Of a DNA stretch of 64,000 nt, positions 38,676-62,994 are shown piece after piece (positions within the stretch are counted from its first letter, which is position 1; each line of letters begins with the position of its first letter). Below the pieces are notes generated by a model. The model saw only the letters and a program-made list of their open reading frames with translations, had not been told where the DNA came from and searched no databases. The position numbers and the translations under genes were made by a program. Source of the stretch: Streptomyces europaeiscabiei (GTDB lineage: Bacteria > Actinomycetota > Actinomycetes > Streptomycetales > Streptomycetaceae); assembly GCF_036346855.1 (NCBI RefSeq), contig NZ_CP107841.1:3910001-3974000 (forward strand), written 5' to 3'.

Positions 38676-40256
38676 ATGCCGCCATACCAGCCGTCTTCGG
38701 ACTGGCAGTTCGACGTACCCACCAGCGGAAGCAAGCGGCTCCCACCGGCTGCCAGGTCGTTCGAGTCGCTCGCGCACCAGGGCTACGGCTTCGAGGCAGC
38801 CATCGCCGACCTGATCGACAACTCCATCGACGCAGGAGCCCACAACGTCGTCGTGAGTTTCGTCCGGGACACCGGCGACCGTGGCGGACGAGACCGCCTC
38901 GTCGGCCTGCTCGTCATCGACGACGGCCACGGCATGGACGAGGCGGACTTGGACACGGCGATGACGGTCGGCGGGCGCGCCGTGTACGCCGCAGGCGCCC
39001 TCGGGCACTTCGGCGCCGGGCTGAAGGCGGCCTCGCTCTCGCACGCCGACGCACTCACCGTCATCAGCCGGACCAAGCGCAGCCCGTCGGCCGGCCGCCG
39101 CTGGCTCACCGCCCGCGCGCAGGCCGACTTCACCTGCGACATCGTCGACGCGACGTACTGCCAGAACCTGGTCGACCGTTACGACGGCGTCATCGGCTGG
39201 CACGGCGCGATCATCCGCTGGGATCATGTCCGCGCGTTCGAGACCATCACGGCCGGGCAGACCGACCGCTACCTCAACGACGCCATCGAACGGCTCGAAA
39301 CCCACCTGGGTCTCTACCTCCACCGCTTTCTGGCCCGCGACGACTTCAACATCGACATCGTCGTCGAGGATGTCCACACCCGGGAGGAGTTGGACCACCG
39401 AGGTGTGGAACCTATCGACCCCTTCGGCTACCGCGTTCCAGGCCGCGCCGGTTATCCCCGTACATATGTCGCCCCCGTCGAGGGCGTCGGCGACGTCGCG
39501 CTCACGGCTCACATATGGCCGCCCAAGTCGCCGCTCGTGGCCTACCGAGGTATCGGCCCGCTCGCCGAACGCCAGGGCTTCTACCTGTACCGCAACGACC
39601 GGCTTGTCCAAGCCGGCGGCTGGAACGACACCCGCAGCCCGGAGGGCCACCTCCCCCTCGCCCGGATCGCCGTGGACCTGCCGCCCGAGCCCAACGACGT
39701 GTTCGCCCTGACCGTCAAGAAGGACGGCGTCCAGGTGACCCCGGCCTTCGCCCGAGGGCTCGAGCAGGCGGTCGCCCCCACGACCGGCCACACCTTCACC
39801 GAGTACGTCCACGATGCCGAGGCGACCTACCGTGAAGCCGCCAAGCGGCGTACCGAGGTCAAGCGCCCGGTCGTCATCCCGCCCGGGAAGGGAATCGACC
39901 CGAAGTTGAAGCGGACACTGCGGGACGAGCTGCCGCAACTGGAGGGCGACGACCCCATCGCCTTCACCTGGGCCAGGCTCGATGTTCCGCCCGGTGTCGA
40001 CTCCGCCGAACTGCTCTTCACTATCGACCACAAGGAGCGCTTGGTCGTCCTCAACAAGGACTACCGGCATGCCTTCAACGGCGGGCGGCGCGGGGGCTCC
40101 AACGACGCCCCGGTCCTCAAGAGCCTCCTCTATCTGATGCTCAACGAGATCTTCCAGAAGGAGCGGGTCTGGGCCAACCAGACCGACAAGGTCACCCTGT
40201 GGAACAGCGTGCTCGTCGCCGCGGTACAGGCCGAACTCGCCCGCGCCGAGGCTTAG
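38676..40256 (+). CDS. MORC/MutL-like GHKL ATPase of a restriction-type system
   Basis: Protein of 526 aa with an N-terminal GHKL (HATPase_c_3-like) ATP-binding domain. The N-box is FEAAIADLIDNSIDAGA (Asn49), the second motif LLVIDDGHGMDEADL and the glycine motif ALGHFGAGLKAASLS. An S5-like segment follows, then a long C-terminal part without obvious catalytic motif. Iyer, Abhiman and Aravind (2008) described such prokaryotic MORC relatives in restriction systems with Z1, Vsr and cytosine methylase genes, exactly as here. ATG 38676 was chosen over 38628 because GAGGAA lies 7 bp upstream. It is the first gene of a five-gene operon and probably an ATP-driven DNA clamp or loader. Confidence 0.87.
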   Translation: MPPYQPSSDWQFDVPTSGSKRLPPAARSFESLAHQGYGFEAAIADLIDNSIDAGAHNVVVSFVRDTGDRGGRDRLVGLLVIDDGHGMDEADLDTAMTVGGRAVYAAGALGHFGAGLKAASLSHADALTVISRTKRSPSAGRRWLTARAQADFTCDIVDATYCQNLVDRYDGVIGWHGAIIRWDHVRAFETITAGQTDRYLNDAIERLETHLGLYLHRFLARDDFNIDIVVEDVHTREELDHRGVEPIDPFGYRVPGRAGYPRTYVAPVEGVGDVALTAHIWPPKSPLVAYRGIGPLAERQGFYLYRNDRLVQAGGWNDTRSPEGHLPLARIAVDLPPEPNDVFALTVKKDGVQVTPAFARGLEQAVAPTTGHTFTEYVHDAEATYREAAKRRTEVKRPVVIPPGKGIDPKLKRTLRDELPQLEGDDPIAFTWARLDVPPGVDSAELLFTIDHKERLVVLNKDYRHAFNGGRRGGSNDAPVLKSLLYLMLNEIFQKERVWANQTDKVTLWNSVLVAAVQAELARAEA

Positions 40257-40308
40257 TCCTCCTCTCTCCCTCGCATCCTCCCGTACGTCAGAGAGGCCAC
40301 CAGCCGCC

Positions 40309-43263
40309 GTGACCGCCGAGAACACGCCCGCCCCCGACCACCTCACCGATCTCCACGGCGAGGTTCTGGACGCGATGAGTCGTCGCGGCCCCAAGCACTT
40401 CGCCAAGCTGGCTTTCGTCCTGGCCGACACCGACGAACCGGCCGACATGAACATGTCCCACTTCCGGGATCGCATCCTGACTGCGGGCACTGGCGACGAA
40501 CTCTTCGCTCTCTGGAGCCGCAAGCTCACTGCTTGGGACTTTGAACAGTCCCCCACCTGGTCCGCCACCGCGCCCCGCACTCCAGAGCGCCGCACCGAGG
40601 TCTACGACAAGCTCGCGTTCGGCGCGGATCTACGCAAGGCGCTCGACGTGGCCGTCCCGGTCCACAAAGAACCGGGTCCCGTCACCATCAGCCGTGAGTT
40701 CCAGCCCTGGTACACCCGGGAGCAGGCAGCGAACCGCTCTTTCTACTGGACTTCGTACGAGCGGCTGCTACGTCGCAAGGACTGGAACGACACAGCGGTC
40801 TCCAGCCTGGATGAGGCGGCCCATGCGGTCGTGGAGCGGCTCGCCGACCCCACCCGTGACGACCCATACGGCGCGCGAGGACTGGTGGTCGGCTACGTAC
40901 AGTCCGGCAAAACCGCCAATTTCACCGGCGTCACGGCCAAAGCCATCGACGCGGGCTACCGCCTGGTGATCATCCTTGGCGGCACTCTGAACCTGCTCCG
41001 CGGCCAGACCCAGCGCCGCCTCGACATGGAACTGATCGGCCAGGAGAACATCCTCGGCGCCGCCGACCCGACCGACCCGGACGCCCTGGTCGACATCGAC
41101 TACCAGGACGACGAGGACTGGCCCACGAAGTTCGTCTCGTTCGGTGCCCGCCCCTCCGTGCTCGGCGCCTTCGACATCGAGCGTCTGACCTCTCGCGACC
41201 GTGACTACATGGCACTGGAGCGCGGCATCAGTGCCCTGGAGTTCGAGAAGCCGGACCGCACCCGTCCCCTGTACGACCCGGCGAACCTGCATGCGGCCCG
41301 CGCCCGCGTGATGGTCGTGAAGAAGAACAAGTCGGTGCTGGAGAAGCTTGTCAGAGACCTCAAGAAGATAGGCCCGATCCTCGGCGAGATACCGGCCTTG
41401 ATCATCGACGACGAGTCGGACCAGGCCTCGGTGAACACGACGAACCCGAAGAAGTGGGAGGACGGCAAGGTCACCCGCACCGCGATCAACGGCCAGATCA
41501 GCAAGCTCCTCAAGCTCCTGCCACGCGCCCAGTACGTCGGCTACACCGCGACTCCCTTCGCCAACGTGTTCATCGACCCGGGCGACGAGGAAGACCTCTT
41601 CCCACGCGACTTCCTGATCTCCCTTCCCCGTCCCACCGGCTACATGGGCGTTCAGGACTTCCACGACCTGGACCCCGTCGACGACAGCGAAGGCGAGGCC
41701 GAGAAGAAGCATGTCCGAGGTATCTACGACTCCACGGGCGACCGACTCCAGGAAGCCCTGGACGCCTTTGTCCTCACCGGCGCTCTGAAGCTCTACCGGG
41801 AGGAACACGGCGTCCCCTCCGAATCGTTCCGGCACCACACGATGCTCGTGCACGAATCGGTCCGCATGGCCGAACACGCGGCGCTCGCCCTGCGCATCAA
41901 CACCATGTGGCACAACGCCGCGTACACGGGCCCGGAGGGTCACACACGCCTGGCATCCCTCTTCGACAAGGACTTCCACACCCACGCGGACGGCTCCCTG
42001 CCCACTCCCACGACCTACGCGGACCTCAAGCCGTATGTTTCTCAGGCCCGCCGTCTCATCAACCAGGGCGGCAGTCCCGTCATGGTCATCAATGGTGAGA
42101 GCGAGCGCGACTACGCCCAGCCCGACCTGGACTTCGACCGCACGCCGAACGTCTGGAAGATCCTCGTCGGCGGCACCAAGCTGTCCCGTGGCTTCACCGT
42201 CGAGGGCCTGACGATCACGTATTACCGCCGCACGACGCAACAGGCCGACACCCTGATGCAGATGGGCCGCTGGTTCGGCTTCCGGCCCGGCTACCGCGAC
42301 CTCGTGCGCCTCTACATCGGCCGAGAGGAGGCCCTCGGCCGCGGCCGCAACGCCAAGACGGTCGACCTGTACGAGGCCTTCGAGGCGATCTGCCGAGACG
42401 AGGAACTCTTCCGCGCCGAGCTGGCCCGCTACGCCCCCTTGGTGGACGGCCGCCCGCAGGTCACCCCCGCCCAGATCCCGCCGCTGGTGGCCCAGCATCT
42501 GCCGTGGGTGAAGCCGTCGGCTCGGAACAAGATGTTCAACACGGAGTTGGTGGAGGTACGGTCACCCGGGTCCTGGGTGGAGCCGACCGCCTACCCGGAA
42601 ACCCCGGAGGGGCTGGCACACAACACCGAGTGCTGGGAGCCGGTGCTCGCCGCGCTGGGCCAGAACCCTGTGCGTCTTTCGGTCGGGGACGGCCCCATGT
42701 ACGAAGCGCGCGTAGGGGCGGTCTCGCACGAGACCCTCACAAAGGTGCTGTGCGACCTACAGTGGTCGATTCCGAGCCAGTTCTCGCCGCACCTGGAGTT
42801 CCTGCTCGGGGCAGGGCAGCAGGCGACGACGATCGACGACTGGCTCGTGATCACGCCCTTGCAGACCTCCGCCAGGCGCGTGGAGGCCCGCATCCTGGGG
42901 CACGGCCCGTTCACCCCGGCCCGCCGTACCCGCCGACGGGGCTCGCTCTTCAGCGCGCTCAGCGAGCCCAAGCACCGCGCCGCCGCCCTGCGCGTCGCAG
43001 GCGCTGTCGAGACGGCTGGTAACGCAACGGTCGAGCAGCACGTCCGCCCGCGCCGAGGCGCATTGTTGCTCTACCCGGTGGTCGAGTCCGAGCCCCGACT
43101 CACCTCCGGCGGGGCGCTGGACCCTGGTGACCTCGTGATGGCCTTCTCCTTCGTTGCCCCGAAGTCGTCGGCGGGATCCGAGCGCCCGCTGGTCCGGTTC
43201 CGTGCAATCGACTCGAGCCGGCCGGATGCGGTCGTCATCGGCCGAGACAGCATGGATTCTTGA
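40309..43263 (+). CDS. Z1-domain SF2 helicase-like ATPase
   Basis: Large protein of 984 aa. The Walker A motif is GYVQSGKTANFTG (about residue 196-208) and Walker B is ALIIDDESDQAS. Motif III is GYTATPFANVF. The Z1-type motif V/VI region is GGTKLSRGFTVEGLTITYYR followed by TLMQMGRWFGFRPGY, with the arginine-finger region. About 300 residues of unknown function follow. Z1 proteins are known partners of MORC-type ATPases and cytosine methylases and probably translocate on or remodel DNA. GTG 40309 follows AGAGAGG. The gap to the MORC gene is 52 bp, and the Vsr gene begins just after its stop. Confidence 0.88.
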   Translation: MTAENTPAPDHLTDLHGEVLDAMSRRGPKHFAKLAFVLADTDEPADMNMSHFRDRILTAGTGDELFALWSRKLTAWDFEQSPTWSATAPRTPERRTEVYDKLAFGADLRKALDVAVPVHKEPGPVTISREFQPWYTREQAANRSFYWTSYERLLRRKDWNDTAVSSLDEAAHAVVERLADPTRDDPYGARGLVVGYVQSGKTANFTGVTAKAIDAGYRLVIILGGTLNLLRGQTQRRLDMELIGQENILGAADPTDPDALVDIDYQDDEDWPTKFVSFGARPSVLGAFDIERLTSRDRDYMALERGISALEFEKPDRTRPLYDPANLHAARARVMVVKKNKSVLEKLVRDLKKIGPILGEIPALIIDDESDQASVNTTNPKKWEDGKVTRTAINGQISKLLKLLPRAQYVGYTATPFANVFIDPGDEEDLFPRDFLISLPRPTGYMGVQDFHDLDPVDDSEGEAEKKHVRGIYDSTGDRLQEALDAFVLTGALKLYREEHGVPSESFRHHTMLVHESVRMAEHAALALRINTMWHNAAYTGPEGHTRLASLFDKDFHTHADGSLPTPTTYADLKPYVSQARRLINQGGSPVMVINGESERDYAQPDLDFDRTPNVWKILVGGTKLSRGFTVEGLTITYYRRTTQQADTLMQMGRWFGFRPGYRDLVRLYIGREEALGRGRNAKTVDLYEAFEAICRDEELFRAELARYAPLVDGRPQVTPAQIPPLVAQHLPWVKPSARNKMFNTELVEVRSPGSWVEPTAYPETPEGLAHNTECWEPVLAALGQNPVRLSVGDGPMYEARVGAVSHETLTKVLCDLQWSIPSQFSPHLEFLLGAGQQATTIDDWLVITPLQTSARRVEARILGHGPFTPARRTRRRGSLFSALSEPKHRAAALRVAGAVETAGNATVEQHVRPRRGALLLYPVVESEPRLTSGGALDPGDLVMAFSFVAPKSSAGSERPLVRFRAIDSSRPDAVVIGRDSMDS

Positions 43264-43284
43264 GGCCTGACAGCATTGGACGAC

Positions 43285-43728
43285 ATGAGGCCCTCCTCGC
43301 CCGGCGTCTCAGCACGCATGTCCCGCCAGGCCAGCAAGGACACGAGCGCCGAACTGGCCGTGCGGCGCCTGCTGTACGCGGCGGGCATGCGCTATCGCGT
43401 GGAATACCCGGTGCCGGGCATGGCGCGGCGGCGCATCGACGTGGCCTTCACCCGAGCCAAGGTGGCCGTTCTGATCGACGGGTGCTTCTGGCACGGGTGC
43501 CCAGAACACGCTACGCATCCGAAGTCCAACGCGGAGTGGTGGCGCAAGAAGCTGGACCGGAACATGGCCCGCGATCGGGAGACGACGGAGCACCTGACCG
43601 CGGCGGGGTGGATGGTGTTGCGGTTCTGGGAGCATGAGGCCCCTGAGGAAGTGGCCGTGCGAGTGGGGGCAACTGTGCAACAGCGTCTGACAGAACTGGC
43701 AAGGGGGCGTGAAAAGTGGGGGGACTGA
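43285..43728 (+). CDS. vsr: Very-short-patch-repair-like (Vsr) endonuclease
   Basis: Nuclease of 147 aa. Family marks are the N-terminal SRQASKDTSAELAVRRLL, the catalytic Asp52 in RRRIDVAFT and the zinc-fold block IDGCFWHGCPEH. RNMARDRETTEHLTAAGWMV followed by RFWEHE is also typical. Vsr enzymes nick at T:G mismatches left by deaminated 5-methylcytosine. In MORC-type operons they have been proposed as the restriction nuclease. TTG 43276 (GAGG 10 bp upstream) is an alternative start. The gene overlaps the first methyltransferase gene by 13 bp. Confidence 0.88.
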   Translation: MRPSSPGVSARMSRQASKDTSAELAVRRLLYAAGMRYRVEYPVPGMARRRIDVAFTRAKVAVLIDGCFWHGCPEHATHPKSNAEWWRKKLDRNMARDRETTEHLTAAGWMVLRFWEHEAPEEVAVRVGATVQQRLTELARGREKWGD

Positions 43729-44711
43729 CCTTCGTGGACGTGTGTTCCGGGGCGGGTGGTCTGGCTCTCGGTCTGGAGCAGGCGGGATTCGAGTCACGCC
43801 TGTTGCTGGACGACGACGAGGTCGCCGTCAAAACTCTGCGGACCAATCGACCGCGGTGGAACGTACTGCAAGCCGATCTGTTGGACTTCGACCCGTCCGA
43901 ACACCCCGTGAGCTACGACGTCGATCTTCTCGCGGCGGGCCTACCACGGGTGAAGTCGAGCGCGACCGTCAGGCGGACGGATTCGGGTATGGAGGAGCGG
44001 CTGCTGGAGGCCACGGTCTACCTCGTCCATGCGATCAGACCTCGGGCGATACTCATCGAGAACGTTCCCGGGCTCGCTCACTCGGACGAGTATCAGCAGT
44101 TCCGTGATTTCGCCCGAGCCGAACTGGCACACCTGGGCTACGAGTTCAGTTGGTTCGTCGTGAACGCCGCCGACTTCGGCGTACCGCAGAACCGCAAGCA
44201 GGGCGTCCTGGTAGCCGTCGAGCGGCAGCAGGCCAAGGCATTCCAGCCGCCGGCACCGACCGTGCAGCAGCCGACGACGGTCGGCGCTGCCTTGGGAACG
44301 TCCATGGCGTCACGCGGTTGGCAGGACGCCGCCCGTTGGGCCGCCCAAGCCGATCAACCGGCTCCGACGCTGGTCGGCGGCTCGAAGAATCGGGGCGGTG
44401 CTGACCTGGGGCCGACGGGAGCCAAGCGGAAATGGGCGACCATGGGCGTCAACGGTCACACCGTGGGTGACGAGATCCCCGGCGCGGATTTCGTGTGGAA
44501 CCCCGAGCTTGGCAGGGACAACATGGTGAAAATCACGTCGGCACAGGCGGCGCTACTGCAGGGGTTCCCTGAAACATGGGAGATCGCAGGGCTCAAGACC
44601 GCCCGGTACCGTCAGATCGGGCACGCGACGCCGCCGCCCGTCGGAAGGGCTCTGGGCCGGGCCATCGCCAAGGCCCTGAATGGGGATCCAGCAGCCTCTG
44701 CGGCCGGCTAG
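43716..44711 (+). CDS. Cytosine-C5 methyltransferase homologue lacking the catalytic Cys (probable pseudo-enzyme)
   Basis: Protein of 331 aa with the overall C5-methyltransferase order. Motif I is FVDVCSGAGGLALGLEQAGF, motif VI is ILIENVPGL with Glu115, motif VIII region is FGVPQNRKQG and motif X is GHATPPPVGRALG. The motif IV loop, normally PCQ, reads LLAAGLPRVKSSA: the nucleophile Cys is Arg78 (codon CGG, 43947-43949) and Gln is Val. The reading frame is open and all other motifs follow in step, so this is not a frameshift. It can probably bind SAM and DNA but not methylate. The start overlaps vsr, and an intact homologue begins 11 bp later. Confidence 0.85.
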   Translation: MGGLTFVDVCSGAGGLALGLEQAGFESRLLLDDDEVAVKTLRTNRPRWNVLQADLLDFDPSEHPVSYDVDLLAAGLPRVKSSATVRRTDSGMEERLLEATVYLVHAIRPRAILIENVPGLAHSDEYQQFRDFARAELAHLGYEFSWFVVNAADFGVPQNRKQGVLVAVERQQAKAFQPPAPTVQQPTTVGAALGTSMASRGWQDAARWAAQADQPAPTLVGGSKNRGGADLGPTGAKRKWATMGVNGHTVGDEIPGADFVWNPELGRDNMVKITSAQAALLQGFPETWEIAGLKTARYRQIGHATPPPVGRALGRAIAKALNGDPAASAAG

Positions 44712-44722
44712 ACTTCCGCCAC

Positions 44723-46105
44723 ATGACCAGCGCGGCACCACACCAGTCCATCCTCGACAAACCCTTTGTCCTGGATCTCTTCGCGGGGCCCGGAGGACTG
44801 GATGTCGCCGGACACGCGCTCGACATCCCGAGTCTCGGTATCGAGTGGGACAAGAGCGCCTGTCTGACGCGGTACGCGGCTGGGCTGGACACCCTTCACG
44901 GCGATGTGAGCGCGGTGCGTAGAGATGCCTTCGAGTCACTGCCACCGGAGATCAATGTGCTGGCCGGCGGGCCTCCTTGCCAGACCTACTCGGTGGCTGG
45001 GCACGGCGCTGGGCGTAAGAACTTGAACAAGGTCAAGGAGTACATCGAGCGACTGACGGCGGGCGAATCCGACGAGGCGATCGACGAGGATCTGAAGACT
45101 CTCAGCGATCCCCGCACCGCGCTGGTCCTTGAACCCCTCCGATACGCCATTCAGGCAACCAGGAGCCCGAACCGGGAGAAGCGCCCGTACGACGTCATCG
45201 TCCTGGAGCAGGTCCCCGCGGTCGAAGAGCTCTGGCTCCACTACGCCAAGGTGCTACAGGGGGCGGGCCTTCCGGACGGCACCAAGTACAAGGTCGTTGT
45301 CGGCCGCCTCGACACCGAGACCTACGGCGTGCCTCAGAAGCGATCCCGCGCGGTATTGATCGCTCGTCGTGAAGGGCTCGCCGCGCCTTCGCTTCCCGTG
45401 CCGACCCACCGTTCCTACGAGGCGAAGGAATGGAACCGTAGGAGCGAGGACGACCAGGCCTCAACAGGCCAGGCTCATCAGCCGACCCTCGACGAGGGCA
45501 CGACACCAGGAACCGAAGAACGCGGGGAAACCGGTGACAAGGGCCTGCGACCCTGGAGGTCGATGGGTGACGTGCTCGCCGACCCGGTGGGTACACATCC
45601 GGGACGCGCCACTCCTTTCCTCGTCCGCTCGAACTACGGCAGCTCCGGGATCCCTGGGAGGCGCGGGGTACGGAGCGATCGACAGCCCGCGTTCACCGTC
45701 ACCGGTCGCATCTCCCGCTTCGTGGTCTTCCAACACCTCGACGCGAACATCGTCTACGAGGGCGCGCGGTTCAGCATGAACGAGGCGGGGATGCTGCAGA
45801 GCTTCCCGCCGGACTATCCGTGGTCCGGTAAGGCACAGTCCCAGCAGGTGGGCAACGCCGTGCCGCCTCTGTTCGGAGCGCACCTGCTGAGCGCCGCACT
45901 CGGGCTCCCCCCGCTGGATCCCGATGCGTTGAGGGAGCCGTGGCAGCCGGCCACGGAGGAACAGCGGGCGAAGCTGCGAAGTCAAGGCTGTGGGGCCGCC
46001 GATGCCTGCACGGACATGTGCCCACGACCCGAGGATCAGGCACCGCCACCCTCCACCGAGCGCCCACGCAAGAGCAACAAGAACAACTCGGAGACATCGG
46101 AGTAG
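44723..46105 (+). CDS. Cytosine-C5 DNA methyltransferase (catalytic Cys present)
   Basis: Protein of 460 aa. Motif I is FVLDLFAGPGGLDVAGHAL, motif IV is NVLAGGPPCQTYSVAGHG with the nucleophile Cys86, motif VIII is YGVPQKRSRAVLI, and motifs IX/X are SQQVGNAVPPLFG. In motif VI the usual ENV reads EQV (VLEQVPAVEELW), which keeps the Glu. The central target-recognition part is large (about residues 215-330). ATG 44723 was taken because motif I starts 14 residues later. As last gene of the operon it presumably marks self DNA for the MORC-Z1-Vsr set and possibly also for DrmAB. Confidence 0.9.
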   Translation: MTSAAPHQSILDKPFVLDLFAGPGGLDVAGHALDIPSLGIEWDKSACLTRYAAGLDTLHGDVSAVRRDAFESLPPEINVLAGGPPCQTYSVAGHGAGRKNLNKVKEYIERLTAGESDEAIDEDLKTLSDPRTALVLEPLRYAIQATRSPNREKRPYDVIVLEQVPAVEELWLHYAKVLQGAGLPDGTKYKVVVGRLDTETYGVPQKRSRAVLIARREGLAAPSLPVPTHRSYEAKEWNRRSEDDQASTGQAHQPTLDEGTTPGTEERGETGDKGLRPWRSMGDVLADPVGTHPGRATPFLVRSNYGSSGIPGRRGVRSDRQPAFTVTGRISRFVVFQHLDANIVYEGARFSMNEAGMLQSFPPDYPWSGKAQSQQVGNAVPPLFGAHLLSAALGLPPLDPDALREPWQPATEEQRAKLRSQGCGAADACTDMCPRPEDQAPPPSTERPRKSNKNNSETSE

Positions 46106-46106
46106 C

Positions 46107-46151
46107 ACGGGGAGCGTGTCCGTGAAGATCCTTCACAGACACGCTCCCCGT
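46107..46151. terminator. Strong bidirectional hairpin between convergent island operons
   Basis: The 21-bp arms at 46107-46127 and 46131-46151 pair with a single mismatch; they include GGGGAGCGTGTC and GACACGCTCCCC around a 3-nt loop. It lies 1 bp after the methyltransferase stop and 4 bp before the stop of the convergent gene, so it probably terminates both. Confidence 0.85.
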
Positions 46152-46155
46152 CTGA

Positions 46156-47034
46156 TCAATCTGCGTTCTTCCGTCCCCTGACCGGCGCGGTCTCGAACAT
46201 TTCCGCAAAGTACTCGGTGAGCGCGGACACGGATTCCTCAGGCACCGGCTCCTCGTCGGGCCCCTCCGGGAGTTCGCGCCGACTCACCGGCTGCGCCGAT
46301 CCCGCCTCCGCGATCCACCTTCGCAAACCGGCCGAGTTCCGAGGCTCGTCCGGCGCGAGCACGTCGTAGACAAGGGTTGCGCCGGCAGCATTGATCGCGG
46401 CGCTGAGGCCCTCGACCTCTCGCCCGGTGGTGACCAGCCCCCTCTTCAGTAGGCGGACCAAAGCCTGAGCGGTGGGACGGTGGTCGATCAGCTCCTTCCT
46501 CAGAACGCTGTGGATAAGGTCCTGGTTTCCGCAGGCTGTCACAACCGGCTCGTAGTCCGCCCCGTTCCTGAACAGCTCAGCCGCCCACCACAGGCGCGAG
46601 AGACACTGCCGGTCCGCAGGACCCCGGAAGCGCTCTGCGGCGACGCGCCTTCCCGGCTTGTTCGCCGTCGGCTCCGAAAGGTGGCGCCAGACCACGTAGT
46701 CGGGAGCCACCGCCAGAGCGATGTGGTTCCACAGACGTTTGTCCGCCGCCTCTCGCCGCGTCAGGCGCAGCGTGGCGTGGAGCCGTGGCGCGAGCCACGC
46801 GTCGGCTCGGGTCCGGTCCGCCCGGAACTCGAACATGGCGTCCTCCACCAGGCTCCGGATCGGCTCGACCGACCACCTGGCGTCGTCCTCGGACAGCGGG
46901 TCGACCACCTTGGCGAGATCTATGCCGCCATGCACATGTTCGCCCTTGAGCAGTTCCTCAGTGAGGAACGGGTCGACGGCCGAGGTGGAGAGCAGCCCCA
47001 AGCGCTCCGGTACGTGGTTCGGTGGGGTGATCAC
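46156..47034 (-). CDS. Island protein of unknown function (possibly DUF6339-like)
   Basis: Soluble, helix-rich protein of 292 aa, third gene of the minus-strand island operon. I see no nuclease or ATPase motif. A conserved-looking core is RLHATLRLTRREAADKRLWN, then DYVVWRHL and CLSRLWWAAELFRNGADY. The RLWW pattern recalls DUF6339 proteins, which I associate from memory with methylase neighbourhoods. The C-terminal third is acidic and probably flexible. Its GTG start overlaps the stop of the gene before it by 4 bp (GTGA), so it is coupled to that partner. Confidence 0.6.
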   Translation of the reverse strand: MITPPNHVPERLGLLSTSAVDPFLTEELLKGEHVHGGIDLAKVVDPLSEDDARWSVEPIRSLVEDAMFEFRADRTRADAWLAPRLHATLRLTRREAADKRLWNHIALAVAPDYVVWRHLSEPTANKPGRRVAAERFRGPADRQCLSRLWWAAELFRNGADYEPVVTACGNQDLIHSVLRKELIDHRPTAQALVRLLKRGLVTTGREVEGLSAAINAAGATLVYDVLAPDEPRNSAGLRRWIAEAGSAQPVSRRELPEGPDEEPVPEESVSALTEYFAEMFETAPVRGRKNAD

Positions 47035-48026: not shown

Positions 48027-48029
48027 GCG

Positions 48030-50213: not shown

Positions 50214-50239
50214 GTGCGGCTCGCAGGCGACTGACCAGG

Positions 50240-50269
50240 AGGTTAATTTGACGCTGTGAGCACTGTCAA
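50240..50269 (-). promoter_or_regulatory. Promoter with overlapping inverted repeat for the XRE-ATPase operon
   Basis: On the minus strand TTGACA (50269-50264) is a consensus -35. TAACCT (50245-50240) is a -10 at 18 bp spacing, followed by a leader of about 25 nt to GTG 50213. TTGAC and GTCAA arms (50248-50252, 50265-50269) and TCAAC-N5-GTTGA (50266-50280) overlap the -35. This is the expected arrangement for autorepression by the XRE domain; binding is inference. Confidence 0.6.
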
Positions 50270-50483
50270 CCAACAGTTGATCGAGCGCGAACCATCGACA
50301 TCACCTAGGTGAGCAGGATCCGGATTGTCCGGTTTTGGAGGTTCATGGACAGAAATTCACACACAAGTGGACAACCCGGACCTTCACGCCCCCCGATCCG
50401 GCCAGCAGCGGACCTTGGCCGACCACCGACCCCCATCAAGTTCGAAAAGTCGACAATCACCCATCGGCGAAGGGGAGTTGGGG

Positions 50484-50511
50484 TGGACACCCGATCGGCA
50501 TCTGATACTAT
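50484..50511 (+). promoter_or_regulatory. Candidate promoter for the sacsin-helicase / UvrD / DrmAB operon
   Basis: TGGACA (50484-50489) and TACTAT (50506-50511) with a 16-bp spacer face the plus-strand operon. The surrounding 900 bp is clearly richer in AT than the rest of the window. Three GTCAG/CTGAC half-sites lie downstream at 50651-50672. Confidence 0.5.
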
Positions 50512-51008: not shown

Positions 51009-51213
51009 CCCCTTCATGTGCTCACTCCGTGCGCGCCGGAGACCCGTTCGAAACCTGCGCTCTTCCGCCTCTCACCTGCACAAACAGGCAGAAGCGGTGA
51101 TTTTGTACACCCGTTGGCAACACTCGAACATCCGTGGGCCGGCTGCACGAAGTTGGCAGCCGGCCCATCCCAAAATTTTCCCGAAGCCCTTGAAACCTAG
51201 GAGTGCAGGACCA

Positions 51214-54200: not shown

Positions 54201-55977
54201 GGAGGAGGTCACCCGCACGCCCAACGGCACACAGGCCTCTCCGCTGGACGCCGTCCGCCAGGACGGGACCGTCAAGGTTCGTGTCCCGCTGGATCCCGAG
54301 CCGATGCTCCGCCTGATCGACCGCGAACTCGGGTTGGGCCTCGGCGCGTCCGGCTGCCGGGCCGTGCTCGAACACCAGGACCGGATGGCCCGGGACAGTG
54401 CGATGCAGGCGGCCCGGAAAGCCGTACGCGAGACGGAGGACGTGGTCACCAAGATCGAACTGCTGGTCGGCGCGGAAGCGCTCCGGGTCGGTCTCCCCGA
54501 AGGGTTGATGGAAGCGGAACTACTGGCGGCCGACGGCGTCCAGCCATCGGGGCGGCGGATCGCGCAGATGGCTTTCAACGCCCATGGCGACGGTGTTCTC
54601 CATCAGCACGCTCGTGACATCCAGGCACGATTCCCTGAGGCCCCGGTGTCCTACAGCGGATCCTCGTCCGCCATCGCCTTTGTGTCGGACCTGAAACTCC
54701 CGGTGTCCTTCGCGGGCTCGCGGACCCCGACCCCGCCACCGTTCGAGACCATCGAGGGCCCTCGGGACTTCCCGAGCCTCCACGAGTATCAGGAGGACCT
54801 GGTCCGCAACATCACCACGATGCTCGACCGCCTCGCTCCCCAGCGCGGCATGTTGTCGCTGCCGACCGGCGCGGGCAAGACCCGGGTCACCGCCGAAGCT
54901 GTGATCCGCTGGGTCAAGCGTGTCGGCGACTTGAACGGACCGCTGCTGTGGATCGCGCAGACCGAGGAACTGTGCGAACAGGCCGTGCAGAGCTGGAAGT
55001 TCGTCTGGAGCAAAGTGGGTGCAGAGCGCCCGCTGACCATCAGTCGGCTCTGGAGCGGCAACGAGGTCGGGAACGTCGTCGACCACCCCCACCTGGTGGT
55101 CGCCACCGACGCCAAGTTGGAGCGCTGCCTGGACACAGAGCAGTACGTGTGGCTGCGTCAGGCCGCGCTGGTGATCGTGGACGAGGCTCATACCGCCATC
55201 TCCAAGCGGTACACCGAGATCCTGAGCCGGTTGGGACTCACCCAGTACGAGACCGGTCGGCACCTGCTCGGCTTGACTGCCACGCCCTTCCGCAACACCA
55301 ACGAGGAGGAGACCCGCCGTCTGGTGGGGCGCTTCGGGAACCGGCGGCTCGACGAGGGTGTCTTCCCGTCCGGTGATCCGTACCGGGATCTCCAGGAGTG
55401 GGGGATGCTCGCGCAGGTGGAGCACCGCACCCTGGAAGGGGGGCGGATCGAACTGACCCGTGACGAGAAGGTTCAGGCCGAGCGGATGTCGATGCTTTCC
55501 CGTGCCGCCGAACAGCGGCTCGCCGACGACCACGCGCGCAGCAGGCGCATCGTCGACTCGGTGGCCAAGCTGCCCGACGACTGGCCGACGCTGCTCTTCG
55601 CCACCTCCGTCGACCATGCCAAGTACCTGGCGGCAATGCTCAACGACCGGGGGATCCGGTCGGCCTCCGTGGACGCGACGACCAGCGCGCAGGACCGCCG
55701 TACGCGCATCGAGAAGTTCCGCGACGGACGTATCCGGGTGCTCACCAACTACGGCGTGCTCGCCCAGGGATTCGACGCTCCGGCCACCCGTGCCGTGGTC
55801 GTGGCCCGGCCCGTCTACAGCACCAACGTCTACCAGCAGATGATCGGTCGTGGTCTGCGCGGTCCGCTCAATGGCGGCGAGCCCACCTGCCTGATCCTCA
55901 ACGTCAGCGACAACATCGCGAACTTCGACACCCGACTCGCCTTCACCCAGTTCGAACATCTCTGGAGCAGAAAGTGA
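51214..55977 (+). CDS. Hsp90/sacsin-like GHKL ATPase fused to SF2 (DEAD/DEAH) helicase
   Basis: Giant protein of 1587 aa. The first 150 residues form a sacsin-type ATP site: RQLFELVQNAADEIA (Asn56), LYCANEGSPVTPEGAETILR, and KRGGQIGRFGVGVKSVLVV; GAWKTNEDRQNLLD is typical downstream. Residues about 350-1180 show no motif I recognise. The last 400 residues are an SF2 helicase with MLSLPTGAGKTRVTAE (Walker A, about 1214), VIVDEAHTAI (DEAH) and LLGLTATPFRN. NYGVLAQGFDAPATRAVVV and YQQMIGRGLRGPL follow. GTG 51214 has AGGAG upstream. It overlaps the next gene by 4 bp (GTGA) and is probably the large motor/sensor of the DrmAB operon. Confidence 0.87.
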   Translation: MSSSFSPVIETVLEQSSRVLKTYAVDPGLVAEHANGERRITQGGYGDRQLFELVQNAADEIAAEPGGRVHVVLTGTHLYCANEGSPVTPEGAETILRMSMSKKRGGQIGRFGVGVKSVLVVTDAPEFFSSTGSFGFDRAWSYEQIKNVPGVTARYGPEFDAPVLRMARPLDVQAERAADPVLHELLTWATTVVRLPLLKKADRRLSLDMHGGRAKEHGESRDEFPVGFQLFSPHVAKVVLEDRRHLPPARRILTTRQTGDLHTVTEERTGKANTIRWRVFTGTHTPSPAAQADAGELHDRLSLDLSWGVPALRKDPETGLYVNSQIRGRGRFWSFFPTKYEMSLSGILNGAWKTNEDRQNLLDSSPFNQEMIRVSAALVVDSLPALSPAEDPGAYLPLLPGRVKEAISWADEFLTREIWARAATHPSLPDQDGVLRAPAELRVHPRFDKKDLKRLAGWLRMWHECPGRPSNWLHPSVETDSLRSGKVEHILDAARHERADVRAWLEALVESGSAEASAVAIRILANMIEVGSPYAEEARRAHIVLTEEHGLVPSVRGQVFRRAEEGGLRESTVYVVDALAQDPSLAHALDVLGIREADVEGRFVSVLDQGFDGYGEAEWQRFWELFRRAGIRQLALKVLERVATPGSTLRVRTADGRFRPMENCMLPGTVVDARRDPTVAVDMAFHSDDVSFFAQVGLRERPTSGVRPTEDEAWFEEYREAVHSAYLRGLDSHAPRPSLSRMKVEGAAIGGPLHLFRALSDESRAAFLKALPDDAVVDNWTRQIGAQSSTRQAVISPIRWMLRKYGTVATSQGIKPLKEAVGPQLAAYRDVLPVADLSAEKARKLRLPTTVDDVPADRWEALLDEVSRSEDDSFVGATYVMLTRFGADFPEDSLTRCRIGDTWGTRPDDEITLAVGTAEYRALRAEQLPALLVPTVGDAELMVEKWGMLRFADVISRETREVVEGDPVPLVELYPGLRRHLNSSNRNSLVQRCTELEEVTRTPNGTQASPLDAVRQDGTVKVRVPLDPEPMLRLIDRELGLGLGASGCRAVLEHQDRMARDSAMQAARKAVRETEDVVTKIELLVGAEALRVGLPEGLMEAELLAADGVQPSGRRIAQMAFNAHGDGVLHQHARDIQARFPEAPVSYSGSSSAIAFVSDLKLPVSFAGSRTPTPPPFETIEGPRDFPSLHEYQEDLVRNITTMLDRLAPQRGMLSLPTGAGKTRVTAEAVIRWVKRVGDLNGPLLWIAQTEELCEQAVQSWKFVWSKVGAERPLTISRLWSGNEVGNVVDHPHLVVATDAKLERCLDTEQYVWLRQAALVIVDEAHTAISKRYTEILSRLGLTQYETGRHLLGLTATPFRNTNEEETRRLVGRFGNRRLDEGVFPSGDPYRDLQEWGMLAQVEHRTLEGGRIELTRDEKVQAERMSMLSRAAEQRLADDHARSRRIVDSVAKLPDDWPTLLFATSVDHAKYLAAMLNDRGIRSASVDATTSAQDRRTRIEKFRDGRIRVLTNYGVLAQGFDAPATRAVVVARPVYSTNVYQQMIGRGLRGPLNGGEPTCLILNVSDNIANFDTRLAFTQFEHLWSRK

Positions 55978-57878
55978 CCGACGCCTACCTCGACAGCCCG
56001 CCGCTCACCGATGAGCAGCGGGCCGTGGTCGAGCAGCCCTGGAACGCGCGTGTTCTGGTCACCGCAGGCGCCGGGGCGGGAAAGACCCACACGTTGGTGC
56101 GCCGGCTCGACGCGCTGTGTGGCCACGACGACCCTGACGAGGCGTTGGAGGCGGCCGAGATCCTGGTACTCACCTTCTCCCGGGCCGCCGCCCGCGAGTT
56201 GCGGGAGCGCATCGCCCGGCACGGGGAGCGGGCTCGCCGGGTGCGCACCCAAACCTTCGACGCCTGGGCGTACGGGGTGCTCCTTCAGGCGCACCCGGAC
56301 GGCGAGTGGGGTGCCGTCGGCTTCGACGAGCGGATCGGCGCCGCGACCCGGGCGGTCGAGGAGGGGACGCTGGAAGTCGGTGATGCCGTCCCGCCCGCCC
56401 ATGTCGTGATCGACGAAGTACAGGACCTCGTGGGCGGGCGTCGAGAGCTGGTGGAGACGCTGCTCGACCGGTACCAGGACAGCTGTGGCTTCACCGTCGT
56501 CGGCGACGCCGCCCAGTCCGTCTACGGCTTCCAGATCGAGGACCTGGCCGAACGCGCCGACGAGACCGGGCGGTTCTTCGACTGGCTGCGCGGCTCGTAC
56601 CCCGACGAACTCGTGGAACTGAGTCTCACTCACAACTTCCGAGCCGTTACCCCCGAGGCTCGGATCGCCTTGGCTCACGGTCCCCGGCTCCAGCAGGTGA
56701 CGGATGCGGACGAAGCGGCGACGCGCTACGACGAGCTGCGCGAACTGCTCCTGGATCCGGCGAACAACCTGGGCGACCTCAGTGATCCCTTCGCCTTGGA
56801 CGGGTTGCGGACCTTCCCCGACACCTGCGCGATCCTCACCCGCGACAACCGACAGGCCCTGGTGGTCTCCGACCTGCTCCACGGGCATGACGTCGAGCAC
56901 CGACTGCGGCGCCCCCTCGAAGAACGGCCGGTGCCGTACTGGGTGGCCGAGTTGTTGCGCCGCACCGAGGCGACCGGCCTCACCGAGGACCGGTTCCACT
57001 CGCTGCTCGCGGAGATCCCGCTGCCGTACGAGCCGAACGTGACCGTCCTGTGGCCGGTGCTGCTGCGGGCCGCGCGCTCGGCCGGCCGCGGTGTGCTCGA
57101 TCTGGAGCGGCTGCGCCGCTCGGTCGCCGACGGCAGGTTCCCCGACGAGGCGGCCGACCCGGAGGCCGCGCGCATCGTCGTCTCCACCGTGCATCGGGCC
57201 AAGGGCCTGGAGTTCGACCGGGTGATCGTCCTGACCCCGCCGACCGTCGCCGAACTGCGCAAGCAGTACAAGGACGACTTGGACCTCCCCGCCGAGGCCC
57301 GAGCCCTGTACGTGGCGATGACTCGCGCCCGCGAGGACCTGTACCACGCGCAGCCGCCCGAGTTGCCGATCCTCAAGAGAGCGGGCGGCCGGAAGAACGG
57401 CCGCCGCTACGTCGGCGGATGGCGGTCGTACGACAGATACGGCGTCGTCGCCGAGGCGGGGGACGTCTGCCGGGACAACCCGCCCGGCCACGGGACCGAC
57501 GCCGTGGCGACCCAGGCGTACCTCTTGGCGCAGGTAGGCCCCGGACAGGAAGTCGTGCTGCGCAGGCGCCACGATCTACCGATGGGTGAGTACCAGAGCC
57601 CGCCCTACGCTCTGGTGCACGACGGCAGGGAGATCGGTGAGGCGTCGGAGCGGTTCCGGGAGGAGCTGTTCCAGGTGCAGAAGGTGAACAGGACATGGGC
57701 CCCCTGGTGGCCCGACGAGATCCACGGCACCCGGATCGACACCCTGGAGACGGTGACCGGCAGCGCCGCCGCCGGCGCCAACGCCGGTCTCGGTGACCGA
57801 GGGGCGTGGATCGTCCCCCGGATCACCGGCATCGGAAGGTATCGACGGGCCGACAAGGACGAGGAGCAGCGCGCATGA
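55974..57878 (+). CDS. UvrD/PcrA-like SF1 helicase
   Basis: SF1 helicase of 634 aa. The Q motif is LTDEQRAVVEQPWNARVLV, Walker A is GAGAGKTHTLVRRL, motif Ia region is VLTFSRAAARELRER and motif II is VVIDEVQDLVGG. Motif III is VVGDAAQSVYGFQ. In the C-terminal half motif V is IVVSTVHRAKGLEFDRVIVL, and YVAMTRAREDLYHA is motif VI. It is short for UvrD (about 720 aa) and ends with an unusual 120-residue domain in place of the usual tail. The start overlaps the sacsin-helicase stop and the stop overlaps drmA (ATGA). Confidence 0.88.
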   Translation: MTDAYLDSPPLTDEQRAVVEQPWNARVLVTAGAGAGKTHTLVRRLDALCGHDDPDEALEAAEILVLTFSRAAARELRERIARHGERARRVRTQTFDAWAYGVLLQAHPDGEWGAVGFDERIGAATRAVEEGTLEVGDAVPPAHVVIDEVQDLVGGRRELVETLLDRYQDSCGFTVVGDAAQSVYGFQIEDLAERADETGRFFDWLRGSYPDELVELSLTHNFRAVTPEARIALAHGPRLQQVTDADEAATRYDELRELLLDPANNLGDLSDPFALDGLRTFPDTCAILTRDNRQALVVSDLLHGHDVEHRLRRPLEERPVPYWVAELLRRTEATGLTEDRFHSLLAEIPLPYEPNVTVLWPVLLRAARSAGRGVLDLERLRRSVADGRFPDEAADPEAARIVVSTVHRAKGLEFDRVIVLTPPTVAELRKQYKDDLDLPAEARALYVAMTRAREDLYHAQPPELPILKRAGGRKNGRRYVGGWRSYDRYGVVAEAGDVCRDNPPGHGTDAVATQAYLLAQVGPGQEVVLRRRHDLPMGEYQSPPYALVHDGREIGEASERFREELFQVQKVNRTWAPWWPDEIHGTRIDTLETVTGSAAAGANAGLGDRGAWIVPRITGIGRYRRADKDEEQRA

Positions 57879-60800
57879 CGCAGGTGGCAGGTCGGCACTC
57901 CGAGCACTATCGGATCCGGGACGAGGAACTGCTGGTGGGGCTCCGCCGCGAGCTTCTCGGTCCCGCTTCGGACGCCGAGCCGGAGGACCGGGGCGAGGTC
58001 CTCACCGAGGACGCACCGATCGACCGCTATCTGACCGGCGTCCTCTACCCGCGAGCGGCCGACCCGACCGCGGAGCAGCGGATCCGTGAGGACGAGGCCG
58101 AGCACGAAGGCCTGGACGTCGCCCCGCTGCGCACGGGTGAGAGCGTCGAGGAGTCCGGCACCGCGCAGGAGGTGGGCGCTGCGGGCTCCCGCCGCCCCTC
58201 GTCCATGGGCCTCACCTTCGCGGTCGACCCTGCCATAAGCGACTCGATCGTGGTCTCGGCGCGCGCGGCCGTCTACGAGCCCACCGACCCGGAGGGCAAA
58301 CCGATCCCGGCCCGCCGTGCCGAGGCTCGCACCACCTCCGAGCAGCGGGAGCGGTGGCGACGCAAGGAACTCGTCCTTCCGGACTCCACGGTCGACGTGA
58401 CAACACCCGCCCCCGACAAGAAGTTCGACCTCGGTGCGGGGGCCCTACTGCGCGTCAACGTCCGACGCCCTCACCCGACCACCGGTACGGTCACGATCAC
58501 GGTCACACTCGTCAACACCCACCAGGTCGGCGAGCGCGAGCTCCAGGACGCGTTCTGCCTGTTCCAGTGCGGCCTCACCGTCCGCGCGGCCGACGGCTCC
58601 ACCGCCTTCGTTGAGCGCCCCGCCCCGGCTTCCTCCCATGACGACGATGTCGCCTCCAGCAGGCTGCTGCACCGCCACGCCCCGACCTTCGCCGTCGGCC
58701 ACGGCTGCGCCTCAGAATGGGACTGGACCCCGCCGCCGATCGGCATGACCGACACCCGAAAGGCCGCCGTCGCCGAGGTGCGGAGCGAGTTCGTGCCTTC
58801 CGTGGAGGTGCTGCTCACCGACTCCAATCCGGAGATCGACAGTTCGGCGCTGTCCATGCTGGGGCTGGCGGAGAAGTCCGACATCGAGGTCCTAGCCGCT
58901 CTGGAGGATCTCGCCACGGGATACGAGCACTGGATCGACCGCAAGGCAGCCGAGGCGGAGGCCTTGGCGGGCGACATCCATGAGGAGGCCGCGCGGAACC
59001 AGGTGAACGCCTGTCATGAGGCGCTCGGCCGTATCCGTCAGGGCATCGAGTTGCTACGGACCAAGCCCGACCTGATGAGGGCGTTCCGACTCGCCAACCG
59101 CGCCATGGCCGAACAGCGCGCCCGCAGCGCCTGGGTGAAGGGCGGACGCGTCGGCGCCCCCGACCCGACCGGTGGTCGCTGGCGCCCCTTCCAGATCGCG
59201 TTCATGCTGCTCTGCCTGGCAGGCATCGACGACCCCAACCACCGCGACCGAAAGATCTCCGATCTGCTGTGGTTCCCGACTGGTGGTGGCAAGACCGAGG
59301 CCTACCTCGGACTCATCGCCCTCACGTCCTTCCTGCGTCGCATCCGCAAGGGCGCGGACGGAGGTGGTGTCACCGTCCTCATGCGCTACACCTTGCGGCT
59401 GCTCACCCTCCAGCAGTTCGAGCGCGCGGCGATCCTGCTCTGCGCCATGGAGCACATGCGGCGCCATACGCCCGAGTTGGGACGCGAGGAGTTCTCCATC
59501 GGCATGTGGGTGGGGCGCTCGGCCACACCCAACACGCTGGCCGTGGCCGGCCAGAAGCTCGACGAGCTACGCAAGAGCCTCGACAAGCGCCTCGCCACCG
59601 AGAACCCCGTCCAGTTGCACGCCTGCCCCTGGTGCGGGACCCGCCTAGACGCCCGCAACTACGAGGCTGACGAGGACGCCAGGCGGATGCACGTCCGCTG
59701 CCCCGGCACGGACTGCGAGTTCGCCGACGGCCTGCCCGTCCATCTGATCGACGAGGCGGTGTACGACGCTCGGCCCACGTTGGTGATCGCCACCGTCGAC
59801 AAGTTCGCGTCGATGCCGTGGCGCCCGGCGACCTCGGCGCTCTTCAACCTCGACGACCTGGAGGGTGACACTCCTCCCCCGGAGCTGATCATTCAGGACG
59901 AACTCCACCTGATCTCCGGTCCGTTGGGCACTCTGACCGGCCTCTACGAGACCGCCGTGGACGCGCTCGCAGACCGCCCCAAGGTGATCTCCTCCACAGC
60001 GACCATCCGTCGCGCCGCCGACCAGGGTCGCCACCTCTTCGCACGCGGCGTTCGCCAGTTCCCGCCCGCAGGCCTGGACGCCCGAGACTCGTGGTTCGCC
60101 GTGGAGACCCCACGCGAAGAGAAGGCGAGCCGGCGCTACGTCGGCCTCCTGGCGCCCGGCACCAGCCAGTCCACCCTGCTGATCCGCACGTACGCCACCC
60201 TGCTGCACCGGGCCAAGCACGCGGAGACCGCCGACGAGGTGCGCGACGCGTACTGGAGTCTCGTTGGCTACTTCAACAGCCTCCGGCTGCTCTCCGCGGC
60301 CGAACTCCAGGTCCACGATGACGTGGTGGCCTATCTGGAGCTGCTCGCCGAGCGTGAAGGGGTGGCGGTCCGCCCGATCGCCAACTACTCGGAACTGACC
60401 AGCCGGGTCGACGCCAGCGAGATTCCGACCCGCCTCAAGGGCATCGAGAAGAGCTTTCCCGACGACGACGCGGTGGATGTCCTCCTGGCCACGAACATGA
60501 TCGCGGTGGGTGTGGACGTGGACCGCCTCGGTCTCATGGCCGTCATGGGCCAGCCGCAGACGACCGCCGAGTACATCCAGGCGACGAGCCGTGTCGGCCG
60601 CGCGCACCCCGGCCTGGTCACGGTCATGCTCAACTCGACCCGGTCTCGGGACCGCTCCCACTACGAGAGCTTCCAGCACTTCCACTCGGCCCTCTACCGT
60701 GAGGTCGAGTCCACCTCCGTGACACCGTTCTCCGCCCGCGCCCGCGAACGGGGCCTGCACGCGGTGATCGTCGCTCTTGCCCGCATCCTGATCCCGGCCG

Positions 60801-61129
60801 CGCGCCCCAACGAGGGCGCGGGCAAGGTCGAGTCCTACGAACACGTTCTCCGGGGCCACATCAGGTCCGTGCTCCTGGAGCGCGTGGAAGCGGTCTCCCC
60901 GGAGGAGGTCGAGGCCGCGTCCCACGCCTTCGACGAGTTCGTCGAGTGGTGGTGCGAGGAGGCCGACATCGACGGCGGCCTGCTCTTCGAACCTCGCAGG
61001 GGCAGCCGGGCACCTTCGCTTCTGAAGGCGTACGACGACGAGTCCGAGGACGCCGGGGCGCGGGCCACGCTGTGGAGCCTGCGAGACGTCGACGCCGAGT
61101 CCGCTCTGTTCATGGAGGCAACCCGATGA
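57875..61129 (+). CDS. drmA: DrmA, DISARM SF2 helicase
   Basis: DISARM helicase of 1084 aa. The family-specific Walker A is LLWFPTGGGKTEAYLGL (about residue 467), and the DExH box is LIIQDELHLISGPLGTLTGL. A zinc-finger-like insert (HACPWCGTRLDARNY with MHVRCPGTDCEFADG) lies between them. The motif V/VI block is NMIAVGVDVDRLGLMAVMGQ followed by YIQATSRVGRAHPG. The N-terminal 450 residues belong to the DrmA-specific region. ATG 57875 overlaps the UvrD stop and the gene overlaps drmB (ATGA). In DISARM, DrmA with DrmB binds and restricts incoming DNA. Confidence 0.9.
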   Translation: MTQVAGRHSEHYRIRDEELLVGLRRELLGPASDAEPEDRGEVLTEDAPIDRYLTGVLYPRAADPTAEQRIREDEAEHEGLDVAPLRTGESVEESGTAQEVGAAGSRRPSSMGLTFAVDPAISDSIVVSARAAVYEPTDPEGKPIPARRAEARTTSEQRERWRRKELVLPDSTVDVTTPAPDKKFDLGAGALLRVNVRRPHPTTGTVTITVTLVNTHQVGERELQDAFCLFQCGLTVRAADGSTAFVERPAPASSHDDDVASSRLLHRHAPTFAVGHGCASEWDWTPPPIGMTDTRKAAVAEVRSEFVPSVEVLLTDSNPEIDSSALSMLGLAEKSDIEVLAALEDLATGYEHWIDRKAAEAEALAGDIHEEAARNQVNACHEALGRIRQGIELLRTKPDLMRAFRLANRAMAEQRARSAWVKGGRVGAPDPTGGRWRPFQIAFMLLCLAGIDDPNHRDRKISDLLWFPTGGGKTEAYLGLIALTSFLRRIRKGADGGGVTVLMRYTLRLLTLQQFERAAILLCAMEHMRRHTPELGREEFSIGMWVGRSATPNTLAVAGQKLDELRKSLDKRLATENPVQLHACPWCGTRLDARNYEADEDARRMHVRCPGTDCEFADGLPVHLIDEAVYDARPTLVIATVDKFASMPWRPATSALFNLDDLEGDTPPPELIIQDELHLISGPLGTLTGLYETAVDALADRPKVISSTATIRRAADQGRHLFARGVRQFPPAGLDARDSWFAVETPREEKASRRYVGLLAPGTSQSTLLIRTYATLLHRAKHAETADEVRDAYWSLVGYFNSLRLLSAAELQVHDDVVAYLELLAEREGVAVRPIANYSELTSRVDASEIPTRLKGIEKSFPDDDAVDVLLATNMIAVGVDVDRLGLMAVMGQPQTTAEYIQATSRVGRAHPGLVTVMLNSTRSRDRSHYESFQHFHSALYREVESTSVTPFSARARERGLHAVIVALARILIPAARPNEGAGKVESYEHVLRGHIRSVLLERVEAVSPEEVEAASHAFDEFVEWWCEEADIDGGLLFEPRRGSRAPSLLKAYDDESEDAGARATLWSLRDVDAESALFMEATR

Positions 61130-62994
61130 CCCCACCCCCCGCCCGCCGCCGCCGGACCGGCGCGAAGGGTTCCACGCCCACCCACAACTTTCCGCGACGC
61201 GGTGCGGTCCGTCGCGCCCAGGCGATCACCACGTACGGCATCGGATCACTCATCGCCGTCGACGCCGAGTCCTTCGTCGTCTCCGGCCTGGACGAGGCCG
61301 ACGAGAGCTGGAGCGTCCACGAGTCCCCGCGGATCCACGAACGGCGCCTGGCCCGCCTGCTCGAAGTCGACTACTTCCGACTGCCGCCCGCGTCCGACGA
61401 CACCAGCAGGGACGGCCTCAGGGTCCGACGCTTCCCCTTGATGCACTCCTGTCCCGTGTGCAAGGATCTACAGCGACACCGCGACTTCAATCCACCGGCC
61501 GGGCGAAGCGTCTGCGGCACGTGTGAGGTCGATCTCGTCCCCTCCCGCTTCGTCGTCGCCTGCGAGGCCGGACACCTCGGCGAGTTCCCGTACTGGCAGT
61601 GGGTGCACCGTTCCTCCGAGCGCGGTGCCGCGACAGCCGGACAGTGCGGGGGAACTCTCAAGCAGCGCACGTCCGGGCGTACGTCCTCGCTCCGCTCGAT
61701 CCTCGTCTCCTGCACCTGTGGAAAGGCTCCCGAAGTCTCGATGGAGGGCTCGTTCCGCAGGAACGCGCTCAAGGACCTGGGCCTCAAGTGTCGTGGCACC
61801 CGCCCGTGGCTCGGCACGTCCGCCCCTGCCCAGGAGTGCGGGCTCCCTCTGCGCACGCTTCAGCGTGGTTCCTCGGCGGTGTGGCAGCCGGTGCTGAAGT
61901 CGGCGCTCTCGATCCCGCCGTGGAGCAACGGTCGCGCGGATCCGCTCGCCGAACACTGGGACGCGCTTCGCAAGCGTGAAGACGACCGCGCGCGCGTCGA
62001 GGACTATCTCGACGGCGCTTTCAAAGGAAAGTGTCCTGTTCCCCTGGACGAGGTGATGGCGCTGCTCGACGCGGAGCGCGAGGAGGACCCCGACGGCGAA
62101 GGGGGTCCCACCTTCGACCACCATTACCGCGCCCTGCGCAACAAGGAGTACGAGCGTCTCCACTCGGGCAACGACGAGAGCGAACACTCCCACGAGGAGC
62201 AGTTCGTCTGCGAGACCCCGCTGGGAGACCAGAGCGTACTCGGCCCAGTCGGCGTCACCGGGCCGATGCTGGTCAAGAAGCTCCGCGAGGTACGCGCTCT
62301 GAAAGCGTTCACCCGTCTCGCCGACCCCGACTCGACGACCGAAGCGAAAGAGATGCCGCTCTCCGACTCCCCCTTGCGCTGGCTCCCGGCCATGGAGGTG
62401 CGTGGCGAGGGGGTCTTCCTGCGCCTGGACGAGGATCGACTGGGCACATGGGAGAAGGCCACGGCGGTGGCTGCACGGGTCGAGCGGATGCGCACCGCTC
62501 ACCAGCGGGTGCTGGAGCAGCGGGCTGGAGACCCGAACAGTGTCGTCCCTTCCCCTGCCACGCCTCGCATGGTGCTGTTGCACACCCTGGCCCACGTCCT
62601 CATCAACGAGTGGAGCCTGGACGCGGGCTATCCGGCCGCCTCCCTGCGCGAGCGTCTGTACGCCGCCGACGACATGGCGGGAGTGCTCATCTACACCGCG
62701 ACCAGCGACTCGGCGGGCAGCCTCGGCGGACTCGTCGCCCAAGGCGAGCCGGAGCGTCTCGACCAGGCGATCCGTTCAGCCGTCCACCGCGCCGAGTGGT
62801 GCTCCTCCGACCCGCTCTGCGTCGAGTCCGAGGCGTCCGGCACGGGCGGCACCAATCTCGCCGCGTGCCACGCCTGCGTGATGCTCCCCGAGACGAGTTG
62901 CGAGCAGAACAACATCCTGCTCGACCGCGCGCTGCTCGTCGGCACACCGGAGGGCCCGAGTCTGGGCTTCTTCGCCCATCTGTTGGACCGGTAG
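61126..62994 (+). CDS. drmB: DrmB, DUF1998 protein of DISARM
   Basis: DISARM partner of 622 aa. The N-terminal region starts VRRAQAITTYGIGSLIAVDA, followed by a zinc-ribbon set (MHSCPVCKDL, SVCGTCEVDL) and VVACEAGHLGEFPY. The C-terminal DUF1998 domain has LLHTLAHVLINEWSLDAGYP, SDPLCVESEASGTGGTNLAA and CHACVMLPETSCEQNN with the conserved Cys. The ATG overlaps the drmA stop. It is the last gene of the operon. A drmC (phospholipase D) gene, normally next, is missing; a bidirectional hairpin and an unrelated minus-strand gene follow instead. Confidence 0.9.
   Translation: MTPPPARRRRTGAKGSTPTHNFPRRGAVRRAQAITTYGIGSLIAVDAESFVVSGLDEADESWSVHESPRIHERRLARLLEVDYFRLPPASDDTSRDGLRVRRFPLMHSCPVCKDLQRHRDFNPPAGRSVCGTCEVDLVPSRFVVACEAGHLGEFPYWQWVHRSSERGAATAGQCGGTLKQRTSGRTSSLRSILVSCTCGKAPEVSMEGSFRRNALKDLGLKCRGTRPWLGTSAPAQECGLPLRTLQRGSSAVWQPVLKSALSIPPWSNGRADPLAEHWDALRKREDDRARVEDYLDGAFKGKCPVPLDEVMALLDAEREEDPDGEGGPTFDHHYRALRNKEYERLHSGNDESEHSHEEQFVCETPLGDQSVLGPVGVTGPMLVKKLREVRALKAFTRLADPDSTTEAKEMPLSDSPLRWLPAMEVRGEGVFLRLDEDRLGTWEKATAVAARVERMRTAHQRVLEQRAGDPNSVVPSPATPRMVLLHTLAHVLINEWSLDAGYPAASLRERLYAADDMAGVLIYTATSDSAGSLGGLVAQGEPERLDQAIRSAVHRAEWCSSDPLCVESEASGTGGTNLAACHACVMLPETSCEQNNILLDRALLVGTPEGPSLGFFAHLLDR

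Follow-up and report, generated by a model that had tools for sequence, protein, structure and literature searches.

The 64,000-nucleotide stretch of Streptomyces europaeiscabiei DNA analysed here (contig NZ_CP107841.1, positions 3,910,001 to 3,974,000; the window) carries a predicted defence island in which two C5-methyltransferase-fold genes, Dcm1 and Dcm2, and three genes named M33A, M33B and M33C lie next to a four-gene operon, SacHel-UvrD-DrmA-DrmB (Table 1). Across families, 69/69 loci share the same gene order and orientation, and they show 4-bp overlaps as well as a recurring candidate operator. These 69 loci underlie most counts below; 68 locus copies were used for Dcm1 and 72 loci for the insertion-site flanks.

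Table 1. Features of the island, in window coordinates, with profile or structure matches (E-values, or bit scores where a cut-off is given)
Feature	Position	Strand	Evidence
MORC/MutL-type GHKL ATPase, MzaB-like, optional effector module	38676..40256	+	HATPase_c_3 8e-21; MzaB 4e-33, yet far under the 850-bit cut-off
PF10593 gene	40309..43263	+	PF10593 6.9e-53
Vsr endonuclease	43276..43728	+	TIGR00632 112.8 (cut-off 97.85); aligned to E. coli Vsr 1cw0
Dcm1, C5-methyltransferase fold, Arg78 replacing catalytic Cys	43716..44711	+	PF00145 1.2e-44
Dcm2, C5-methyltransferase, GGPPCQ motif intact	44723..46105	+	PF00145 5.4e-22
M33C, DUF6339 family	46156..47034	-	PF19866 8.7e-14; PDC-M33C 1.3e-9
M33B	47031..48026	-	no Pfam, PADLOC or NCBIfam match
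M33A, helix-turn-helix (XRE) domain and GHKL-type ATPase motifs	48030..50183	-	HTH_3 9.8e-12; PDC-M33A 4.9e-21
Candidate operator TTGAC-N12-GTCAA	50248..50269	no strand	divergent intergenic region, upstream of M33A
SacHel, sacsin/Tiamat-type GHKL ATPase fused to RadD-like superfamily 2 helicase, 1587 aa	51214..55977	+	P_loop_sacsin 68.6 (cut-off 50); RadD 1.2e-29, below cut-off; TmtA 5e-38
UvrD/GajB-like superfamily 1 helicase	55974..57878	+	PF00580 1.2e-24; GajB 1.5e-25
DrmA helicase	57875..61129	+	NF038325 1005.9 bits (cut-off 950); PDB 7s9v DrmA E=7e-182
DrmB	61126..62994	+	NF038324 463 bits (cut-off 240); MZB domain

Judged by its sequence, Dcm1 is a pseudo-methyltransferase. In motif IV it has GLPRVKS, with Pro-Arg at the position of the Pro-Cys of active enzymes, Arg78 aligns with the catalytic Cys of DNMT1 structures, and the motif IV Cys of active C5-methyltransferases was not found. 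The Pro-Arg pair is present in all 120 homologs listed (1860 reported) and in 65/68 locus copies, the remaining three having no Cys there (one Glu-Arg, one broken alignment stretch, one fragment); it also occurs in 6/6 Dcm1 copies from other effector types and in two more distant ones (L137, L138). Dcm1 relatives with 35-43% identity were found in 17 records of the plasmid collection. The three examined, from Acidithiobacillus, Rhodococcus opacus and Sulfitobacter, all keep the Cys, within GVPCPPFS or GLPCPPFS, and the stretch GGSKxxGGxDLGPTxAKRxW is common to them and Dcm1. The Sulfitobacter gene lies directly before an NgoMIV-family restriction gene, that of R. opacus has a NaeI-family gene two genes away in a set adjoining a DrmA and a DrmB, and an HNH gene follows the Acidithiobacillus one. 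NgoMIV and NaeI both cut GCCGGC. A PPCQ-type motif, as in Dcm2, lies left of M33C in 67/69 loci; counted over the whole fetched locus, 68/69 have one. The preliminary description had placed the methyltransferases needed by DISARM in the operon neighbouring DrmAB; two C5 folds do lie there, but one of them lacks the catalytic Cys.

The M33A motifs QNSxDE, DDYNxxGL, GGSYGLGK and GTSF, conserved in 22 aligned sequences, can be read as those of a GHKL-type ATPase without a Pfam match to it; the start of M33A was inferred from homologue lengths. M33B is predicted to form an immunoglobulin-like beta-sandwich with a helical C-terminal part. Homologues of M33A and M33C in one operon define the PADLOC candidate system PDC-M33, and both are present here. 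The candidate operator was located within 1.8 kb left of SacHel with a spacer of 12 in 56/69 loci, 11 in 4 and 13 in 4; exact copies outside the M33A-SacHel stretch numbered two in 1.69 Mb, one being the operator of locus L007 itself. In the NERD-type loci L111, L122, L125, L126 and L128, an open frame of ~1120-1215 aa covers M33A, about 400-500 aa more than at other loci. Relatives of M33A occur in five plasmid records, four of them haloarchaeal. In Halobaculum magnesiiphilum, three consecutive genes are M33A, a gene weakly matching M33B (1.3e-7) and M33C, which carries the annotation DUF6339; they lie ~5 kb from a run of genes matching DrmA, DrmB and DrmC (PADLOC or NCBIfam), all below NCBIfam cut-offs, and the C5 methyltransferase nearby keeps its Cys. 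A Halobacterium sp. DL1 plasmid (L147) carries two M33A copies on one record, one flanked by M33B and M33C.

The sacsin-type ATPase-helicase and UvrD-like helicase previously noted in the DrmAB operon were both recovered. Alignments of M33A, SacHel, UvrD and DrmA each show conserved ATPase motifs. In the UvrD-like helicase neither a nuclease domain nor a RelE match was recognised, and for the middle of SacHel, modelled by AlphaFold2 with a mean pLDDT of 87, no solved fold could be matched reliably. In L092 (G404) and L095 (G083), from other lineages, an NgoMIV-type restriction gene and Vsr stand beside SacHel-UvrD-DrmA-DrmB; in L092, a NERD-helicase gene directly follows DrmB, at the place expected for drmC.

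Altogether, these observations suggest that one conserved module, including a methyltransferase without its catalytic Cys, is joined to two different predicted DNA-attacking machines in the Streptomyces island. Dcm2 would mark host DNA, Dcm1 would read its site, M33ABC would pass the decision on using ATP, and the helicases would then act on foreign DNA. DrmAB of DISARM is described as autoinhibited, loading on 5' overhangs and having a lower ATPase activity on 5-methylcytosine (5mC) DNA (PMC9142583). The shared module suggests a single sensor of self and non-self to which bacteria couple different weapons. Several points weigh against this interpretation. All functions in the island are inferred from genes, and our sample, Actinomycetota plus a plasmid collection, is thin beyond Actinomycetota. 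The candidate operator was not found in 5/69 loci, and the same holds for all five NERD-type loci. L126, L128 and L046 showed no Dcm1, though in the L046 genome a different contig carries Vsr-Dcm1-Dcm as a set. No nuclease was recognised in any of the seven constant genes. L094 (G081), L095 (a second copy in G083) and L100 (G053, with SacHel in two frames) have the four-gene operon but no M33 within the 20 kb examined, and the G081 and G053 genomes gave no M33A match at all; the chassis is therefore dispensable in places. L092, further off, has an NgoMIV-type gene instead. SacHel is not limited to the cassette either, since its neighbours in L072 and L057 are quite different, in L057 a helicase-like protein of 2238 aa and a UvrD-like gene.

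Dcm1 and Dcm2 might instead form one heterodimeric methyltransferase, whose dead subunit stimulates its active partner or determines which DNA is recognised, as with DNMT3L or split methyltransferases, leaving Dcm1 no sensing role. Dcm1 lies directly left of a PPCQ-bearing gene in most loci. It retains motif I and the ENV motif, and its stretch GGSKNRGGADLGPTGAKR is as well conserved as the core. However, L126 and L128 have a PPCQ-bearing Dcm2-type gene with no Dcm1 seen in the stretch, and the PPCQ-bearing partner in L055, L056 and L067 gives no match to Dcm2. We regard the heterodimer as possible but less likely than not.

Vsr is probably the mismatch-repair companion of the 5mC methyltransferase. 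A role for it in destroying the DNA, with the helicases loading it as a nuclease without specificity, appears unlikely. In favour of such a role, Vsr lies in the fetched stretch of 59/69 loci and directly precedes SacHel-UvrD-DrmA-DrmB in L092, and in ARMADA the YprA helicase carries a fused Vsr-type nuclease (PMC12458937). Against it, hidden Markov model searches found no Vsr in the fetched stretch of 10/69 loci, including the close relatives L012 and L016 (SacHel identity 84%), whose cassette is otherwise intact. The preliminary description had asked whether Vsr and the PF10593 gene always accompany SacHel; the order is constant, but Vsr varies as above and the PF10593 gene had no match in 22/33 genomes. 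It had also asked whether the operons occur independently; they keep one arrangement in the 69 loci, but not in L094, L095 and L100. On Streptomyces chromosomes the cassette repeatedly occupies one site, flanked by a SEC-C/TPR gene and a HATPase-DUF5753 regulator pair (window 37470-38498, + strand; L002:3076-4845), with the left gene in 29/72 loci and the right HATPase gene in 41/72. Hitchhiking, in which operons merely share such a favoured site, is nonetheless very improbable given the invariant order and orientation, the overlaps and the recurrent operator, and given that the module is also found with other effectors and, as M33ABC, close to a DISARM-like set in archaea. The window further contains two tRNA-Lys genes (7484-7558 and 19029-19105), both with anticodon ctt.

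The original observation was confirmed and its interpretation supported in part. As in DISARM (class 1 and 2), DrmA and DrmB, previously named as its core, exceed the NCBIfam cut-offs with a C5 methyltransferase nearby, and DrmA aligns over most of its length to 7s9v. The reported absence of drmC held: no phospholipase D (PLD) nuclease was found in the operon or in 10 downstream open reading frames (ORFs), and the class I DrmC model, which can miss divergent DrmC, gave nothing over its cut-off in this genome and exceeded it in 2/32 searched genomes. DISARM systems are described as frequently lacking DrmC and not requiring it (PMC9142583). DrmMII profiles match the island C5 methyltransferases, but other profiles score better, and neither DrmD nor DrmE was among the PADLOC/NCBIfam matches listed at E 0.01 (best 25 in four PADLOC lists). 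The island is DISARM-like, yet outside DISARM by the DrmC test, and differs further in its sacsin-helicase and GajB-like UvrD, M33ABC and the C5-methyltransferase fold lacking the catalytic Cys.

The N-terminal sacsin-type region of SacHel resembles TmtA of the Tiamat system, but is here fused to a RadD-like helicase. ARMADA likewise combines several helicases, including YprA-family (its ArmC) and GajB-like UvrD, with a methyltransferase and a Vsr-type nuclease (PMC12458937); it has its own BrxHII-like helicase, PglX-like methyltransferase and fused Vsr nuclease, whereas in the island DrmA and DrmB are split as in DISARM, UvrD lacks a RelE match and the methyltransferases are C5-type. In the ARMADA main text 'sacsin' is absent and 'UvrD' appears once. 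MORC, Vsr, C5-methyltransferase and a distinct superfamily 2 helicase were described together in 2008 in MORC/paraMORC restriction systems (PMC2292703), as in MZA, the gene set to which the preliminary description had assigned the island; MzaD (DUF4420) and MzaE (AIPR) had no Pfam match among the 15 ORFs scanned, and the island methyltransferases are part of a module that DrmAB shares. The literature searched described neither M33 together with DrmAB nor the pseudo-methyltransferase. ARMADA (PMC12458937) and the 2008 MORC paper (PMC2292703) cover parts of the island in parallel systems, and PADLOC lists PDC-M33.
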